NCBI GenBank assembly: GCA_031285165.1
Contig: JAITWR010000130.1
Coordinates: 1 to 45,582, forward strand
Source: Novosphingobium sp.
Lineage (GTDB): Bacteria; Pseudomonadota; Alphaproteobacteria; Sphingomonadales; Sphingomonadaceae
Direction of reading: 5' to 3'
DNA: 45,582 nucleotides
The position numbers and the translations under genes were made by a program. The first letter of the stretch is position 1; the number at the start of each line of letters is the position of its first letter. Shown in pieces: positions 7,698-41,052 of this stretch. The notes under the pieces are model-generated. The model saw only the letters and a program-made list of their open reading frames with translations. It was not told the DNA's origin and searched no databases.

Positions 7698-8849
7698 ATG
7701 GGCAGCGAACGTCATAAAGCTACAGGGCTACTGGCCTGCGCGGCACTGCTGCCGGCGCTGACCTTTGCCGCGACCGCGCCGGCGCAGACGCCCGGCCCGG
7801 TGCAGGACTATCATCTGCCGCCTGCCGGGCCATCGCCGGCACCGGCCGCTGCGGGGCCTGTCGATGCCGATCATCCGGTTGCCGCACCGATGCGCCCGGC
7901 GGCGGCGGCAAGCGCGCTTCCTTCGCCTGCGGCAACCTCGCCGGCGCTGTCCCCGGCTCCGGCCCCGGCTATTGCCCCGCCGCCGCGCGCCGAGCCGCGA
8001 CGGTCCCCTGCTCCCGCGCCCGCGGCGGCGGCATCACCGCCGGCCGCCGAACCGACAGCCGCGCCGGCAAGCGAACCACCGGCAAGCGAACCGCCGGCAA
8101 ACGAACCCGCGCCTGTGTCCGCCGTGCCCGTGCCCGAAGCCGCACCGACGCCCCCGGCCGACAGTTTTCCCTGGCCCTGGGCAGCCGGTGGCGCGGCGGC
8201 CGTGCTCCTGCTCGGCGGATTCCTGCTGCGGCGCCGCCGAAGCGCCCGCGCGGCTTCCGATGATGCGTCCCCGGCACAGTCCGGCCCGAGCGCACCGGCA
8301 ACGCTGCCGCCTCCGCCCGCTCCTCGCCCGCAGCCGGCAGAGCCGCCGCCGCAAGCTGCCGGGCCGCGGCCTCTGGAGATGCAGTTCGAGGCACGCCATC
8401 TCAGCCGGGCAATGGTCAATGCGACGCTGGCCTATCGTCTCAGGCTGACGAACCACGGCGGCACCGCGCTCGGCCCCCTGCATGTCGCGGGCGATATCGT
8501 CTCGGCCCACGCCTCGCTGCCCGCGGCGGAATTGCTGGCGCCTGACGGCGATGCGCTGGCGACCATCCACGAAGTGCCGCAACTCGCCCCGGGCGAGACG
8601 GCGGTGCTCAACGGAGAATTGCGCCTGCCGCTCGCCGGCGTCCTGCCGATCGCCAGCGGCAGCGCGCACGTCTTCGTGCCGCTGGCACGCTTTTGCATCG
8701 ATACCGGGAACGGGGGAACCGTCACGCGCATCTTCGTCGTCGGCCTGGCCGGAGAGCAGCCCGGCGGCCCGCTACGCCCCTTCCCGCTCAACCGCGGCCC
8801 CGGCGTCGACCGGGCGCTGGGCCAGCGCGAACTGGAACTGCCGGGGTGA
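7698..8849 (+). CDS. Hypothetical membrane protein: signal peptide, Pro/Ala-rich linker, one TM helix, C-terminal domain
   Basis: [30 protein letters not shown]...; [23 protein letters not shown] followed by RRRRSARA; C-terminal ~160 aa of non-repetitive sequence. Start at ATG 7698. Confidence 0.75.
8064..8108 (+). repeat. 3 x 15-bp in-frame tandem repeat in the Pro-rich linker
   Basis: ccggcaagcgaacca / ccggcaagcgaaccg / ccggcaaacgaaccc. Confidence 0.8.
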
Positions 8850-8872: not shown

Positions 8873-8979
8873 CCTGGAGCAAGATGCGTGATTTGTGAAT
8901 CACGCATCTTGCTCCAGGTTTTTGCTGTCGCATCGTTTTTTGCGCAAAACCGGTTCCCACTTTTGCGCACGATGCTCTA
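8873..8979 (-). repeat. Bipartite stem-loop intergenic repeat, copy A
   Basis: Two adjacent stem-loops: 21-bp perfect arms 8873-8893/8898-8918, and gcatcg..tgcgcaaaa/ttttgcgca..cgatgc at 8930-8975. Inverted near-identical copy at 35831-35936. Confidence 0.92.
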
Positions 8980-10359
8980 GCCGTATCGGGTCTTGAGCAT
9001 CTGCCAGCTTGCCCTGAGGCCAAGCGCGTCGCCGCCTTTGGGGCGGCCGGGTTTGGCGGCGGGGCGCCAGGCGAAAGTGTCGAAGTGCGCCCAGTCGATG
9101 CCTGCGGGCACGAAGCGGTCGAGGAACAGCGCGGCCACGCTGGCGCCGGCGAAGCCGTTGCTGTGCGAATTGCCGATGTCGGCGATGTCGGATTTCAGGT
9201 ATTCGCGATAGCCGTGCCACAGCGGCAGCCGCCAGCAGGGATCGTCGCTCGCCGCGCCGGCCTTGAGCAGCGCCTCGGCGGTTTCGTCCCTGCGGGTGAA
9301 CAGCGCGGGAAGGTCCGGCCCGACCGCGGCGCGGGCGGCGCCGGTCAGCGTTGCGAAATCGATGATCAGATCGGGCTTCTCCTCGCCCGCGCGGGTGAGG
9401 GCATCGCCGAGGATCAGGCGCCCTTCGGCATCGGTATTGCCGATTTCGACCGAGAGGCCGGCGCGCGAATTCAGCACGTCGCCGGGGCGGAAGGCATTGC
9501 CTGCGACGGCGTTCTCGACCGCCGGCACCAGCATGTGCAGCCGCACCCTGAGGCCGCCGGCCATGATCAGCCGGGCCAGGGCGAGCGCATGGGCGGCGCC
9601 GCCCATGTCCTTCTTCATCAGCAGCATGCCCGAGGATGGCTTGATATCGAGCCCGCCCGAATCGAAGCAGACGCCCTTGCCGACCACGGCCAGGCGCGGG
9701 TGGGCGGGATCGCCCCATTCCAGTTCGATCATGCGCGGGGCGCGGGTGCGCTCGGCGGCGCGGCCGACCGTGTGGACCATGGGAAACGCGCGCACCAGCG
9801 CGTCGCCTCTGGTCACGCGCAGATCGGCCTTGTGCGCCCCGGCCAGGGCTTCGGCCGCGGCTTCGATATCGGCCGGTCCCATATCCTCGGCCGGCGTGTT
9901 GACCATGTCGCGCACCAGCGCGACGGCTTCGGCCTCGGCCAGTGCGGTGTCGATCGCCCTGACTTCCCCGGTCAGCAGCACGCGCGGGCCTTCCCTGGCC
10001 GGCTCGGCGCGGTAGCGGTCGAAGCGGTACTGGCCAGTCAGCCAGCCCAGCAGCGCCGGCCCCGGTTCACCCCCGGCGCGGCGATAGGTGCCTGCGGGCA
10101 GCACTTCGGCCAGCCGGGCCATGCACCAGCTCGACAATCCGCCGGTATCGGCGACACCCGCGACGACGCGCCAGGCGTCGCCATCGGGCAGGATCGCGTG
10201 GCTGAATGCGTCGGCCGCGAACTTCTGCGCGGCCAGGGCGGCGCGTTGCGGCGCGGACAGCGATTTCACGAAAGCTTCCAGCCCCGGCTTGTCGACGAGA
10301 TGGATGGGGACGGCCTGCTGGCCGCGATCGGGCTGGATCAATGCGTGTTTGTCGGTCAT
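8977..10359 (-). CDS. Leucyl aminopeptidase family protein (M17)
   Basis: VGKGVCFDSGGLDIKPSSGMLLMKKDMGGAA and EIGNTDAEGRLILGDAL; the stop codon TAG (8977-8979) lies at the edge of repeat copy A. Confidence 0.93.
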   Translation of the reverse strand: MTDKHALIQPDRGQQAVPIHLVDKPGLEAFVKSLSAPQRAALAAQKFAADAFSHAILPDGDAWRVVAGVADTGGLSSWCMARLAEVLPAGTYRRAGGEPGPALLGWLTGQYRFDRYRAEPAREGPRVLLTGEVRAIDTALAEAEAVALVRDMVNTPAEDMGPADIEAAAEALAGAHKADLRVTRGDALVRAFPMVHTVGRAAERTRAPRMIELEWGDPAHPRLAVVGKGVCFDSGGLDIKPSSGMLLMKKDMGGAAHALALARLIMAGGLRVRLHMLVPAVENAVAGNAFRPGDVLNSRAGLSVEIGNTDAEGRLILGDALTRAGEEKPDLIIDFATLTGAARAAVGPDLPALFTRRDETAEALLKAGAASDDPCWRLPLWHGYREYLKSDIADIGNSHSNGFAGASVAALFLDRFVPAGIDWAHFDTFAWRPAAKPGRPKGGDALGLRASWQMLKTRYG

Positions 10360-28441: not shown

Positions 28442-29847
28442 AAGGTGTCGGCACGGACATCGGCACGATCCATTTCGTCGGCATCGGCGGCATCGGCATG
28501 TCGGGCATCGCCGAGGTGATGCACAACCTCGGCTACAGCGTGCAAGGCTCGGACATCGCCGGGAGCTATGTCGTCGAAGGCTTGCGCAAGCGCGGCATCA
28601 AGGTGCTGATCGGCCACGCGGCGGAGAACATCGGCGATGCTGCCGTGGTGGTCACTTCCACCGCGGTAAAACGCGGCAATCCCGAAGTCGCCGCTGCGCT
28701 GGAACAGCGCATTCCCGTTGTCCGCCGTGCCGAGATGCTGGCGGAACTGATGCGGCTCAAGAACACGGTCGCCGTGGCCGGCACGCACGGCAAGACCACG
28801 ACGACATCGATGGTCGCCTGCCTGCTCGATGCGGGCGGGGTCGATCCGACCGTGATCAACGGCGGCATCATCAACAGCTACGGTTCCAACGCCCGGCTAG
28901 GCACCAGCGACTGGATGGTGGTCGAAGCCGACGAGAGCGACGGCAGCTTCCTGCGGCTCGACGGCACGATCGCCGTCGTGACGAATATCGATCCCGAGCA
29001 TCTCGATCACTACGGCAGCTTCGAGCGGGTCAAGGAAGCCTTCGTCGAGTTCATCGAGAATGTGCCTTTCTATGGCGCGGCGGTGCTCTGCATCGATCAT
29101 CCCGAAGTGCAGGCGGTGATTCCCAAAGTGCGCGACCGGCGGGTGATCACTTACGGCTTCTCCGCCCAGGCCGATGTGCGCGGCGAGCATGTGATGCCGA
29201 TTCCGGGCGGCAACCGCTTCGATGCGGCGTTGCGCCAGCGCGACGGCAGCTTTCGCCGGATCGAAGGCGTCGAGCTGCCGATGCCCGGCCGCCATAATGT
29301 CCAGAATGCGCTTGCCGCCATCGCGGTAGCAGCGGAGATGGGGTGTGCCGACGATATCATCCGCTCGGGCTTCGGCAAGTTCGGTGGGGTCAAGCGGCGC
29401 TTTACCAAAGTGGGCGAGGTGGACGGTGCCGTCATCATCGATGATTACGGCCACCACCCGGTCGAGATTCGCGCTGCCCTTGCCGCCGCGCGCGAGGGAG
29501 CGGCGGGCCGGGTCGTCGCCGTGGTCCAGCCGCACCGTTTCACCCGCCTGCGTGACCACATGGAGGATTTCCAGACGGCCTTCAACGATGCGGACATGGT
29601 CTATGCCGCTCCGGTCTATGCGGCGGGCGAGCAGCCGATAGAAGGCGTCACGTCCGATGACATGGTGGCGGGGATGAAGGAGCGGGGCCACCGCTCGGCA
29701 CAGGTCGTCGCCGGGCCGGAAGCGCTGGCCCGGGTGCTCGCCGGGGAGATGCAGGAGGGCGACGTGGTCGTCTGCCTCGGTGCGGGCGATATCACCAGAT
29801 GGGCCGCGGGTCTTGCCGATGCCGTCAGGGCGCGGAGGGGGCAATGA
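28438..29847 (+). CDS. murC: UDP-MurNAc--L-alanine ligase
   Basis: [47 protein letters not shown]. Confidence 0.97.
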
Positions 29848-30881
29848 ACAAGTCCACGTCCGCTCGCGCCGAACCTTTCGCCGCAGGGCTCGATGCGAAC
29901 GGGGTCAGGGGCAAGCTCACCCCCGAGGCCCCGCTCGCCCCGCTCGTGTGGTTCAAGAGCGGCGGTGCGGCCGAATGGCTGTTCGAGCCGAAGGATCTGG
30001 CCGACTTGCAGGATTTCCTGCGCGATCTCGACCCGGCCATGCCGGTGATGGCGCTGGGGCTGGGCTCCAACCTGATCGTGCGCGACGGCGGTGTGCCGGG
30101 TGTGGTGGTGCGGCTTGGCAAGGCTTTCGCCCGAGTGAAAGCGATCGATCCGGTCACGCTGGATTGCGGCGGCGGGGCCAGCGGCATTCTGGTTTCCTCG
30201 ACCGCGCGCGACAGGGGGATTGCAGGCGTCGAGTTCCTGCGCTCGATTCCCGGCACAGTGGGCGGCTTCGTGCGGATGAACGGCGGCGCCTATGGCAGCG
30301 AGGTCGGGGACATCCTGGTCGATTGCGATGTCGTGCTGCGATCGGGTGAATTGCGGACGCTGCCCGTCGCCGACCTGCACTATACCTACCGGCATTCGGA
30401 CCTGCCCGAAGGCGCCATCGTCGCCGCCGCGCGCTTTCGCGGCAGGCGGGGCGATCCGCAGGCGATCCAGGCCGAAATGGACCGCATCTCCGCCTCGCGC
30501 GAGGCTTCGCAGCCGCTGCGCAGCAAGACGGGCGGATCGACTTTCAAGAACCCGCCCGGACAAAAGGCCTGGGAACTGGTCGACGCCGCCGGCTGTCGCG
30601 GCCTTGTCATGGGCGGCGCGCAAGTGAGCGAGAAGCACACCAATTTCCTGATCAACACCGGCACTGCCACCAGCGCCGACATCGAAGGGCTGGGCGACGA
30701 GGTGCGCCGGCGGGTGAAAGCGCGATCGGGTGTGGATCTGGAATGGGAAATTCAGCGCACAGGCATGTTTGCCGAAGCGCCGGCCAAGAATCGCACAGGC
30801 ATGTTTGCCGAAGCGGCAGGCAAGGATCGCGCAGGCATGTTTGCCGAAGCGACAGGCAAGAAGGACTCAGGCAAGCCGTGA
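29844..30881 (+). CDS. murB: UDP-N-acetylenolpyruvoylglucosamine reductase with repeat-bearing C-terminal extension
   Basis: [66 protein letters not shown]; tail after EWEIQ is repetitive. Confidence 0.95.
30756..30863 (+). repeat. 3 x 36-bp tandem repeat in frame at murB 3' end
   Basis: cgcacaggcatgtttgccgaagcgccggccaagaat / cgcacaggcatgtttgccgaagcggcaggcaaggat / cgcgcaggcatgtttgccgaagcgacaggcaagaag, encoding [36 protein letters not shown]. Confidence 0.95.
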
Positions 30882-34265: not shown

Positions 34266-35819
34266 ATGAGCATCAATATCGGACCGCCGGATATCGAAGA
34301 ACTTCGGCCTCGCATCACCGTGATCGGTGTGGGCGGTGCCGGCGGCAACGCCATCGCCAACATGATCGCCGCCGAGATCGAAGGCGTCGATTTCGTCGTG
34401 GCGAATACCGACGCGCAGGCGCTGAACAGCTCGATCGCCGAGCACCGCATCCAGTTGGGCACCGAGATCACAAGGGGCCTGGGTGCGGGCGCTCGCCCCG
34501 AAGTGGGCAAGGCCGCCGCCGAGGAAAGCCTCGACGAGATCGACCGCGCGCTCGAAGGCGTGCATATGTGCTTCATCGCCGCGGGCATGGGCGGCGGCAC
34601 CGGCACCGGCGCCGCGCCGGTGATCGCCAGGGCCGCTCGCGAGAAAGGCGTGCTCACCGTCGGTGTCGTCACCAAGCCTTTTCTTTTCGAGGGCACGCGC
34701 CGCATGCGTTCGGCGGAAGCCGGCATCGAGGAATTGCAGCGGCACGTCGATACGCTGATCGTCATTCCCAACCAGAACCTGTTTCTCGTCGCCAAGGCCG
34801 AAACCACTTTCAAGGAGGCTTTCGCGCTTGCCGACGAGGTGCTGCAACAGGGTGTGCGCTCGATTACCGACCTGATGGTCATGCCGGGCCTGATCAACCT
34901 CGATTTTGCCGATGTCCGTTCGGTAATGGGCGAGATGGGCAAGGCGATGATGGGCACCGGCGAGGGCGGCGGCGAGAACCGCGCGCTCGAAGCGGCGGAG
35001 CGGGCCATCGCCAATCCGCTGCTCGACGGCGTTTCCATGCAGGGCGCCAAGGGCGTGATCATCTCGATCATCGGCGGTGACGACATGAAGCTGCTCGAGG
35101 TCGACGAGGCAGCGAACCATATTCGCGAACTGGTCGATCCCAATGCGAACATCATCTGGGGTTCGGCTTTCAACCCCGATCTTCAGGGCAAGATCCGCGT
35201 CTCGGTGGTTGCCACGGGTATCGAGCAGAGCGCCGAGCAGGCCGAGATCGCGGCCCGGCCGTTGAGCCTTGCCGCCTCGCGCGGCCCCGTCCGCCCGACG
35301 GCGGTTGCCCCGGCCGAGCCGGTGCCCGCGCCGCAGCCTGCGGCGGCCGCGGTGTTCCAGCCGAAGCCCGAAGCGGCGAAAGCCGATGAGGCGCCGGTCT
35401 TTTCGCCGGTGGCCTCGCAGGGCGACGAGCCGGCACCCGCCGACAAGGATGGCCGGGGCGAGGATGACCGGCACGGGGGCGGCTATGCCGGCCTTGCCGG
35501 TGTCCGCGCCGCGGGCAGTGCGCCTCTCGACCTCGGGCTCGAACAGATCGATGAAAAGGCCGGCAGCGGCGGCGGGCAGGACGAACTGCTGCTTGATGCC
35601 AGCCGGCTCGTGCAGGAGGACGGCCTGGTCGCGCCGCTGGTGCCGCCTCGCGGAAGTGCTGCGGCCCGGCCGCCGGCGGCCGGCAACACGCTGTTCGAAC
35701 GCATGGCCAATCTCTCACGAGGCGGCAAGCCTGCTGCGGCCGACGAGGACGGCGACGAGGATGACGACGGTTCTGCCATCAGCATCCCGCGCTTCCTGGG
35801 ACGCCAGAACAACCAGTAA
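34266..35819 (+). CDS. ftsZ: Cell division protein FtsZ
   Basis: [30 protein letters not shown]-terminal peptide [10 protein letters not shown]. Confidence 0.98.
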
Positions 35820-35830
35820 GAGGTTGGCTT

Positions 35831-35936
35831 TAGAGCATCGTGCGCAAAAGTGGGAACCGGTTTTGCGCAAAAAACGATGCGACAACAAAAACCTGGAGCA
35901 AACTGCGTGATTCATAAATCATGCAGTTTGCTCTAA
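35831..35936 (+). repeat. Bipartite stem-loop intergenic repeat, copy B
   Basis: tagagcatcgtgcgcaaaagtgggaaccggttttgcgcaaaaaacgatgcgacaacaaaaacctggagcaaactgcgtgattcataaatcatgcagtttgctctaa; same element as 8873-8979, inverted. Confidence 0.92.
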
Positions 35937-36099: not shown

Positions 36100-37716
36100 A
36101 TGCGCGAATCACACGGCTTTATGCCGCGCTTCTGGCAGGCAGCGGTGCTGGCCCTTGCGTGCGGCGGCGGCATCGCCGCGCCGGCGGCGGCACAGGGCGT
36201 GACGCAGCGCGCCGCTTCGCCGGCCGCATCCCGGCCTGTCGTGCAGTCGGTTCCAGGCCGGGAAAGAAGGGCGATCGATGCGGCGCTTGCCCGGCTGGCG
36301 CGTGATCCGCGAGACATCGATGCGCTGATCGATGCAGGCAATGCCGCGCTCGCCATGGGCGATGTCGATGCCGCCACCGGCTTCTATCGCCGCGCCGATC
36401 AGGTTTCGCCGGGCAATCCGCGGGTAAAGGCGGGGCTTGCCGGCGCGATGGTGCGCAACGGCGATCCTTTCGGCGCGATCCCGCTGTTTCAGGAAGCCGA
36501 GCGGGCGGGGGCGCTCAATACGACGCTGGCCGCCGATCGCGGCCTTGCTTACGATCTCGTCGGCGACAATGCCGCGGCGCAGCGCTATTACCGTCAGGCC
36601 CTTGCGGGCGGGCCGAGCGACGCGGTGACGCACCGGCTGGCACTCAGCTTCGCGATCGCCGGTGACAAGCGCAACGCCGACCTGACTCTCTCGCCACTGC
36701 TCGGGCAGCGCGACCCTGCTGCCGGGCGGACTCGTGCTTTCGTACAGGCCATTCTCGGCCAGACCGATGAGGCGGTCACTACCGCCTATACCATATTGCC
36801 GCCCGATCTTGCTTCCGGGGTTGCGCCCTATCTGCGCTATATGCCGCGGTTGACGCCGGCCCAACAGGCGGCGGCGGCCAATCTGGGGATTTTCCCGCGC
36901 GCTTCGGAAATCGGCCGCGACGATCCGCGTATCGCGCAATATGCGCCGGCCAAACGCCCGAACGTCGCCGTGGCGGATGCCGCTCTGACGCCGCAGGGGG
37001 AGCCGCTCGGCGGCAGATCCCGCGCGCGCGACAGGGATCGCGCCGCACGCGATCGCGAAGCGGTGCGCACGGCCGCCGCGACGGTCGCGCTGCCCCCCGC
37101 CGTCGCGAAGCAGGCGCCCACGCCGCTGCAATCGCGGCCCCAGCCGGCGGTTCAGCCGGAGCCGGGGCCGTTGCCGCCGGTCACGTCCACGCCGCTGCCG
37201 CCTCCTGCCGTTGCGGCGCCGCCTCCGCCATCTCCGCCTCCGGCAGCGCCGCCGCTGCCGCGCAGCCTGGCCGAAGCCTTCGCTGAGTTCGAGAAGCCGA
37301 GCATCGATGCGACTCCGGCATCCGGTGCGGTCGACATCCGCCGCCTGTCCCCGAACAAGCCGAAGCTCCAGACAGCCAATCCGCCGCCGCCGAGCCATCC
37401 GAGCCGCATCTGGGTGCAGATCGCGACCGGGCGTGACAAGGCGGCGCTGGGCTTCGACTGGCGGCGCATGTCGCGCGAGGCAGCCGAGGCGCTTCGCGGC
37501 AGGCAGGCCTACGTTGCCGCCTGGGGACAGACGAACCGCCTGCTGATCGGGCCGTTCCAGAGCGAAGCGGTCGCGGGTTCCTTCATTGCGCAGTTGCGCC
37601 GCGCCGATATAGGCGGCGCCTTTGTCTGGACCAGTCCTGCGGGGCAGGTGGTCGATGCACTGGGGGCGGGTAATCCGAAGGGCGCGGGTAATCCGAAGCC
37701 CGGCCCGAAGCGTTGA
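36100..37716 (+). CDS. TPR-repeat and SPOR-domain secreted protein
   Basis: Signal peptide MRESHGFMPRFWQAAVLALACGGGIAAPAAAQ; TPR-like ALAMGDVDAATGFYRRADQVSPGNPRVKAGLAG; C-terminal SPOR-like RIWVQIATGRDKAALGFDWRRM...YVAAWGQTNRLLIGPFQSEAVAGSF. Confidence 0.85.
   Translation: MRESHGFMPRFWQAAVLALACGGGIAAPAAAQGVTQRAASPAASRPVVQSVPGRERRAIDAALARLARDPRDIDALIDAGNAALAMGDVDAATGFYRRADQVSPGNPRVKAGLAGAMVRNGDPFGAIPLFQEAERAGALNTTLAADRGLAYDLVGDNAAAQRYYRQALAGGPSDAVTHRLALSFAIAGDKRNADLTLSPLLGQRDPAAGRTRAFVQAILGQTDEAVTTAYTILPPDLASGVAPYLRYMPRLTPAQQAAAANLGIFPRASEIGRDDPRIAQYAPAKRPNVAVADAALTPQGEPLGGRSRARDRDRAARDREAVRTAAATVALPPAVAKQAPTPLQSRPQPAVQPEPGPLPPVTSTPLPPPAVAAPPPPSPPPAAPPLPRSLAEAFAEFEKPSIDATPASGAVDIRRLSPNKPKLQTANPPPPSHPSRIWVQIATGRDKAALGFDWRRMSREAAEALRGRQAYVAAWGQTNRLLIGPFQSEAVAGSFIAQLRRADIGGAFVWTSPAGQVVDALGAGNPKGAGNPKPGPKR

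Positions 37717-40976: not shown

Positions 40977-41052
<76 letters not shown>

Follow-up and report, generated by a model that had tools for sequence, protein, structure and literature searches.

The Rhizobium-specific intergenic mosaic elements (RIME) reportedly go back to Osteras in 1995. They are intergenic repeats of Sinorhizobium meliloti, and repeats of this sort have been known for decades as intergenic sequences whose function and mobility are unexplained (PMC2573895). The CcrM-associated intergenic repeats of Caulobacter (CIR; Chen & Shapiro 2003) are about 110 bp in size; two arms, each made by a long inverted repeat, are connected by a linker, with a GANTC at a terminal loop. The passages of the review that treat them report such repeats in large numbers from the intergenic DNA of Alphaproteobacteria, Caulobacter and Brucella among them (PMC2229807). 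The same passages leave the mechanism of CIR mobility open and call for more information on how these repeats move (PMC2229807), whereas the element described below duplicates a TA at its insertion site. For RUP, another repeat covered there, IS630-Spn1 is named as the presumed mobiliser (PMC2229807). GTAG/CGTC REP elements, in the sections of PMC3733652 that deal with them, are palindromic, 20-40 bp long and linked to RAYT, with a TAG that often ends the flanking ORF; these sections describe no TA duplication of the present kind.

The two copies and their neighbouring genes

In the 45,582 nt of Novosphingobium DNA analysed here (the window) there are two 106-nt two-hairpin repeats, at 8873-8979 on the minus strand (copy A) and 35831-35936 on the plus strand (copy B). 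They are 93% identical over 103 nt, and their coordinates agree with an earlier note on this DNA, in which the pair had been described. The family model places copy A at 8874-8979 (minus) and copy B at 35831-35936 (plus), and a scan of the window with it finds no third copy. The hairpin pair folds far better than shuffled sequences in each case (z -12.4 and -9.3). The features are as follows.

8873-8979, minus strand: copy A, whole element, starting on the pepA stop TAG (8979-8977) and running through hairpin 2
8977-8979, minus strand: TAG, the pepA stop codon, read as the left target duplication TA plus the element's first G
8930-8975, minus strand: hairpin 1 of copy A, outer stem GCATCG.., core AAAAGTGGGAACCGGTTTT (fold, covariation)
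8919-8929, minus strand: A-rich linker of copy A, GACAGCAAAAA; read on the plus strand, a T-tract directly after hairpin 2
8873-8918, minus strand: hairpin 2 of copy A, 21 bp; on the plus strand, hairpin and TTTTTG score as intrinsic-terminator-like (fold, terminator scan)
8897-8901, minus strand: GATTC at the loop end of copy A's hairpin 2, a GANTC site of the kind methylated by CcrM (sequence, family statistics)
8977-10359, minus strand: pepA (M17 aminopeptidase) ORF, its C-terminus the same as in relatives without the element
34266-35819, plus strand: ftsZ, ending in TAA 11 nt ahead of copy B
35831-35936, plus strand: copy B, whole element
35831-35832, plus strand: left TA of the putative TA duplication, ggctt-TA-[GAGC (analogy with empty sites elsewhere)
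35835-35880, plus strand: hairpin 1 of copy B (fold)
35881-35893, plus strand: A-rich linker of copy B
35894-35935, plus strand: hairpin 2 of copy B, left arm ...AAACTGCG, right arm ..AGTTT, with pairs swapped relative to copy A (fold, covariation)
35909-35913, plus strand: GATTC, again a GANTC, at the loop end of copy B's hairpin 2 (sequence, family statistics)
35934-35935, plus strand: right TA of the putative duplication, GCTC]-TA-agcc
36121-37716, plus strand: TPR/SPOR-domain gene downstream of copy B

Copy A does start on the pepA stop, as the earlier note had read it, the TAG ending the aminopeptidase ORF. At least 12 relatives that lack the element have a pepA ending at the same codon as here, and because it ends at the same residue in them the gene was not truncated by copy A. 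The right end of copy A is CA instead of TA, presumably a mutated TA. Copy B lies 3' of ftsZ as had been claimed, at a spacing of 11 nt and not 12. The element is absent after ftsZ in more than 20 relatives, several of which have a GC-rich hairpin there; for both copies, this comparison with empty sites rests on diverged relatives. Copy A lies between the convergent genes pepA and a putative plus-strand ORF (8379-8849), so that any orientation of it would be "sense" to one neighbour. Copy B is found between ftsZ and the TPR/SPOR-domain gene, both on its own strand. No promoter-like site was found near either copy.

Elsewhere in the window, three tandem 36-nt repeats (30756-30873) lie near the end of an ORF of the dcw cluster (29844-30881), and a tRNA gene at 40977-41049 is the sole Rfam match in the window at the gathering threshold.

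A dispersed family with covarying stems

The own genome of the window (incomplete, 2.6 Mb) holds the repeat at 40 primary places by BLAST and in about 46 copies by covariance model at E < 1e-6. This genome-wide count had been proposed beforehand, together with the caution that with two copies a chance arrangement was conceivable; chance is excluded by the roughly 46 good copies and by compensatory changes in the stems. The complete two-hairpin element is present in 34 of 289 sampled Alphaproteobacteria genomes, the own genome included, and only 3 of 206 copies lie inside called genes. Its distribution among relatives is patchy: two genomes (G010 and G030) carry dozens of copies and two others (G012 and G016) many, most other congeners have few or none, and close copies sit on Sphingobium plasmids and in MAGs. 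No match was found in the search for carriage by phages, and a literature search with the core sequence of the element returned no relevant paper.

Element lengths are mostly 103-107 nt. In an independent MAFFT alignment (A1), made without the model, 15 of 38 pairs show compensatory change and covariation exceeds that of all shuffles; in a wider set, aligned by fitting to the model, the figure is 36 of 38, with a covariation of 0.609 against 0.162 for shuffled and at most 0.107 for slid controls. Across the family the stem sequences have been largely replaced by compensatory changes. What stays fixed are the ends TAGAGC...GCTCTA, the hairpin 1 core AAGTGG..CCGGTT, the A-rich linker and the outer end of hairpin 2.

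Variant copies consist of hairpin 1 alone, have a collapsed hairpin 1, or abut or partly share one another. The inner part of hairpin 1 is missing at L034:4993-5075 and L038:1642-1726, which looks like a deletion between the short direct repeats GTGCGCAAAA and TTGCGCAAAA. In G010, inverted element pairs abut with an overlap of about 4 nt and larger mosaics are formed (L146:1938-2142, L147:1969-2172), and the single genome G262 has several copies of a 130-nt variant, which exceeds the usual element by about 25 nt (L191, L192, L193). Three congeneric genomes in which the repeat is otherwise almost absent have kept a hairpin 1-like stem around position 1500 of L051, L052 and L053, its flanks being nearly identical in all three; it is possibly a fixed, domesticated copy.

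By published description, rather than by sequence, the element is close to CIR. It shares the two-arm build of about 110 bp with a linker, as seen in its folds, covariation and length, and the dispersed, intergenic occurrence across Alphaproteobacteria. It also has a GANTC at the terminal loop of one arm, in the loop region of hairpin 2 in 29 of 34 own copies, and more weakly in some other genomes. S. meliloti pSymB holds relatives that measure 105 nt, form two hairpins, have a similar linker and share the ends of the element. These we take to be the annotated RIMEs; the window genome is related to Sphingobium and is not a Rhizobium. The expectation that the family was not new is thus borne out, by its CIR architecture and its RIME-type relatives on pSymB, whereas the insertion mechanism and its consequence for stop codons appear to be new.

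Empty sites, target and stop codons

Allelic comparison of empty and filled sites gives the clearest view of how the element arrives. In Sphingobium, the empty site of TomMM15 reads CGCTAGGCC and the filled site of TomTYG46 reads CGC-TA-[GAGC..GCTC]-TA-GGCC; the stop codon on which the insertion falls is an annotated one. TAG is the stop in the empty allele (GGTCGCTAGGCC), and TomTYG46 (GGTCGC-TA-[GAGC...GCTC]-TA-GGCC) stops at the same codon, a position at which other strains have TGA. In Sinorhizobium, K101 has the empty site CCGATTAAAG and S. meliloti 1021 pSymB has CCGAT-TA-[element]-TA-AAGG. A second pSymB site, compared between 1021 and Rm41/C101, is less clean, with CTAG in Rm41 and a diverged left flank. 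Two further pSymB elements (L134 and L131) are carried by most S. meliloti strains, with a few partial matches besides. TA is duplicated at all three sites, one of them with the diverged flank, and the clean empty sites belong to Sphingobium plasmids and Sinorhizobium, not to the window's own species.

The consensus of the ends is Y-TA ... TA-R, the outside bases being mostly C or T before and G or A after the TA, which gives ends of the form YTAGAGC...GCTCTAR; judged from these ends, the target appears to be the symmetric YTAR. Symmetric targets of this kind are a preference of IS630-type enzymes. A palindromic target extending beyond YTAR was considered and rejected, the flanks having no excess complementarity, though the joined flanks of copy B (ggctTTAAgcc) form a small, weak hairpin with the TA near its centre (z -1.7). 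The element has the properties of a MITE of the IS630/Tc1 kind: it is short and non-coding, with terminal inverted repeats and a TA target duplication. Nine IS630-type (DDE_3) loci in carrier genomes were inspected as possible partners, and none has TAGAGC inverted-repeat termini matching the element. Compared by description, Correia/NEMIS, RUP and other TA-inserting MITEs are similar in length (about 105 bp), terminal inverted repeats and TA target; the present element differs from them in having two separate arms and a linker instead of one end-to-end stem.

Very probably, then, the copies are MITE-like mobile repeats of the CIR/RIME kind, which insert into TA, duplicate it and rebuild TAG with a transposase supplied in trans. 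In this mechanism a non-autonomous element of two covarying hairpins and an A-rich linker, with ends GAGC...GCTC, would be inserted by a transposase acting in trans into the TA of YTAR, best CTAG or TTAA, with duplication of the TA; an enzyme of the IS630/Tc1-mariner type would be the likeliest mobiliser. The inserted DNA starts with G on either strand, and on landing in a TAG or TAA stop the TA and this G would again make TAG. Because the gene would keep its stop at the same codon, gene ends would be harmless landing sites, and the apparent "stop-codon reuse" would arise at both ends of the element and in both orientations. Once settled, the hairpins would join 3'UTRs or 5' regions, and effects on RNA ends or CcrM methylation would be secondary.

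The stop-codon reuse that the earlier note had picked out as worth testing has in fact proved general and strongly non-random. On the hairpin 1 side, 95 copies have a sense gene whose end lies no more than 150 nt upstream, and in 50 of these the first TAG of the element is that gene's stop. At the other end, a convergent gene stops on the mirrored TAG in 36 of 95, and outside these two peaks the distances to gene ends scatter. Genes overlapping the 5' end of the element enter it in the TAG frame in 50 of 58 cases, where random entry would give about one third. Sphingobium TomTYG46 is an independently annotated case. The reuse comes about because insertion into TA duplicates the TA and the inserted DNA starts with G; stop sharing is thus the trace of such an insertion and not a one-way signal of 3' ends. 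The harmlessness of landing there would be the reason for the stop bias, as we infer it.

Competing readings and the meaning of the insertion rule

Besides the loop GANTC, the own-genome elements have a GANTC density of 7.5 per kb, against 1.7 per kb around them, and the own genome encodes a CcrM-like RAMA-domain protein. The GANTC motif also defines the CIR repeats in the parts of PMC2229807 that describe them. These observations could fit an element of cell-cycle methylation, in which an exposed GANTC, the target of CcrM, is selected and presented by the hairpins, and which may control nearby genes or transposition. We nevertheless consider this unlikely, for many copies elsewhere are without GANTC (it is present in 3 of 22 in G030 and in 3 of 14 in G326), and the TA duplication and stop sharing would be left unexplained.

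The earlier note had pointed towards a sense element of the 3'UTR, a terminator, RNA stabiliser or processing site, with selection fixing one orientation after stop codons. REP elements in E. coli work in this way (PMC5082802), the hairpins are strong, about half of the copies with an upstream sense gene adjoin its stop, and the GC-rich hairpin of several relatives after ftsZ takes the place of copy B. Yet the shared orientation of the two window copies, once tabulated, does not extend to a genome-wide rule. Over 30 genomes and records, the full-length copies lying between tandem genes divide into 45 in sense and 42 in antisense orientation (p = 0.83), and into 24 and 30 when genomes with consistent gene calls are taken alone; this is the orientation part of the outcome that the earlier note had named as counting against its idea. 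In the own genome, 5 full-length copies are sense and 7 antisense, while 2 lie between convergent and 15 between divergent genes, against 55 convergent and 13 divergent in other genomes (Fisher p 2e-7). Simple targeting of stop codons does not predict this divergent preference, and G010 and a Sphingobium MAG have the opposite of it. Own-genome copies between divergent genes (loci L002-L036) include those at mutL/mreB and glyQ/TraB, and the majority of own copies lie 5' of genes. The window's pair is atypical of its own genome. Gene calls came from a retrained caller, with strands checked by third-position GC and by Pfam on the flanking ORFs; after retraining, third-position GC of the flanking calls is as high as expected in the main genomes and Pfam backs most of those tested, the calls being less certain in some lower-GC genomes.

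The hairpins themselves also speak against a sense terminator. No U-run follows either stem in the sense orientation; the terminator-like side of copy A, hairpin 2 followed by TTTTTG, is antisense, and the same scan finds no such site in copy B. On the antisense strand, a T-tract of at least 5 T lies beside hairpin 2 in 29 of 32 scorable own copies. Moreover, the native downstream hairpin is still present beside the insertion in Sphingobium TomTYG46. Altogether, a sense 3'UTR element is decidedly improbable.

A family of small-RNA genes might be suggested by Rfam RF02600 (BASRCI27), a Brucella sRNA whose transcript is listed as PCR-confirmed (PMC9751625). Its model aligns with the whole length of copy A, both hairpins and the linker, in the same strand sense (47.0 bits, E 2e-9) and matches both window copies and 34 own-genome places, the best at 52.5 bits; among 14 control genomes, Caulobacter vibrioides is the only match. 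No own-genome match reaches the curated gathering score of 59.8 bits, and in place of a single sRNA gene there is here a dispersed repeat, its copies variable, in opposite orientations and in differing contexts, and without promoter-like sites near the two in the window. We therefore judge sRNA genes very improbable as an explanation; it is more likely that the BASRCI27 candidate contains a copy of the repeat.

Least probable of all is that a tyrosine transposase moves the repeat in single-stranded form, as with elements of the REP/RAYT type. The present repeat is likewise palindromic and intergenic and often supplies a TAG stop, as GTAG REPs do. It has two hairpins and a length of about 105 nt, however, where a REP has a single hairpin of 20-40 nt and a GTAG/CGTC tag, and its empty sites show a TA duplication, of which IS200/IS605-type insertion makes none.

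Returning to the mobile repeat, our view of the element is that of a TA-targeting MITE with no demonstrated benefit. From the allelic empty sites comes a concrete rule of insertion for repeats of this kind, duplication of the TA at YTAR, and with it a simple reason for so many copies abutting stop codons. Perhaps, and we put this forward tentatively, CIR and RIME repeats in general are TA-targeting MITEs whose terminal Gs, present at both ends, rebuild TAG and which can thereby colonise gene ends while leaving the proteins unaltered, some of them having replaced or supplemented native 3' hairpins or acting as one-sided terminators; the ftsZ site of copy B is possibly an example of a native 3' hairpin replaced or supplemented in this way. 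The finding is also a warning, in that copies of a mobile repeat may have been catalogued as an Rfam sRNA family and as some of the "conserved 3'UTR hairpins" of Alphaproteobacteria.
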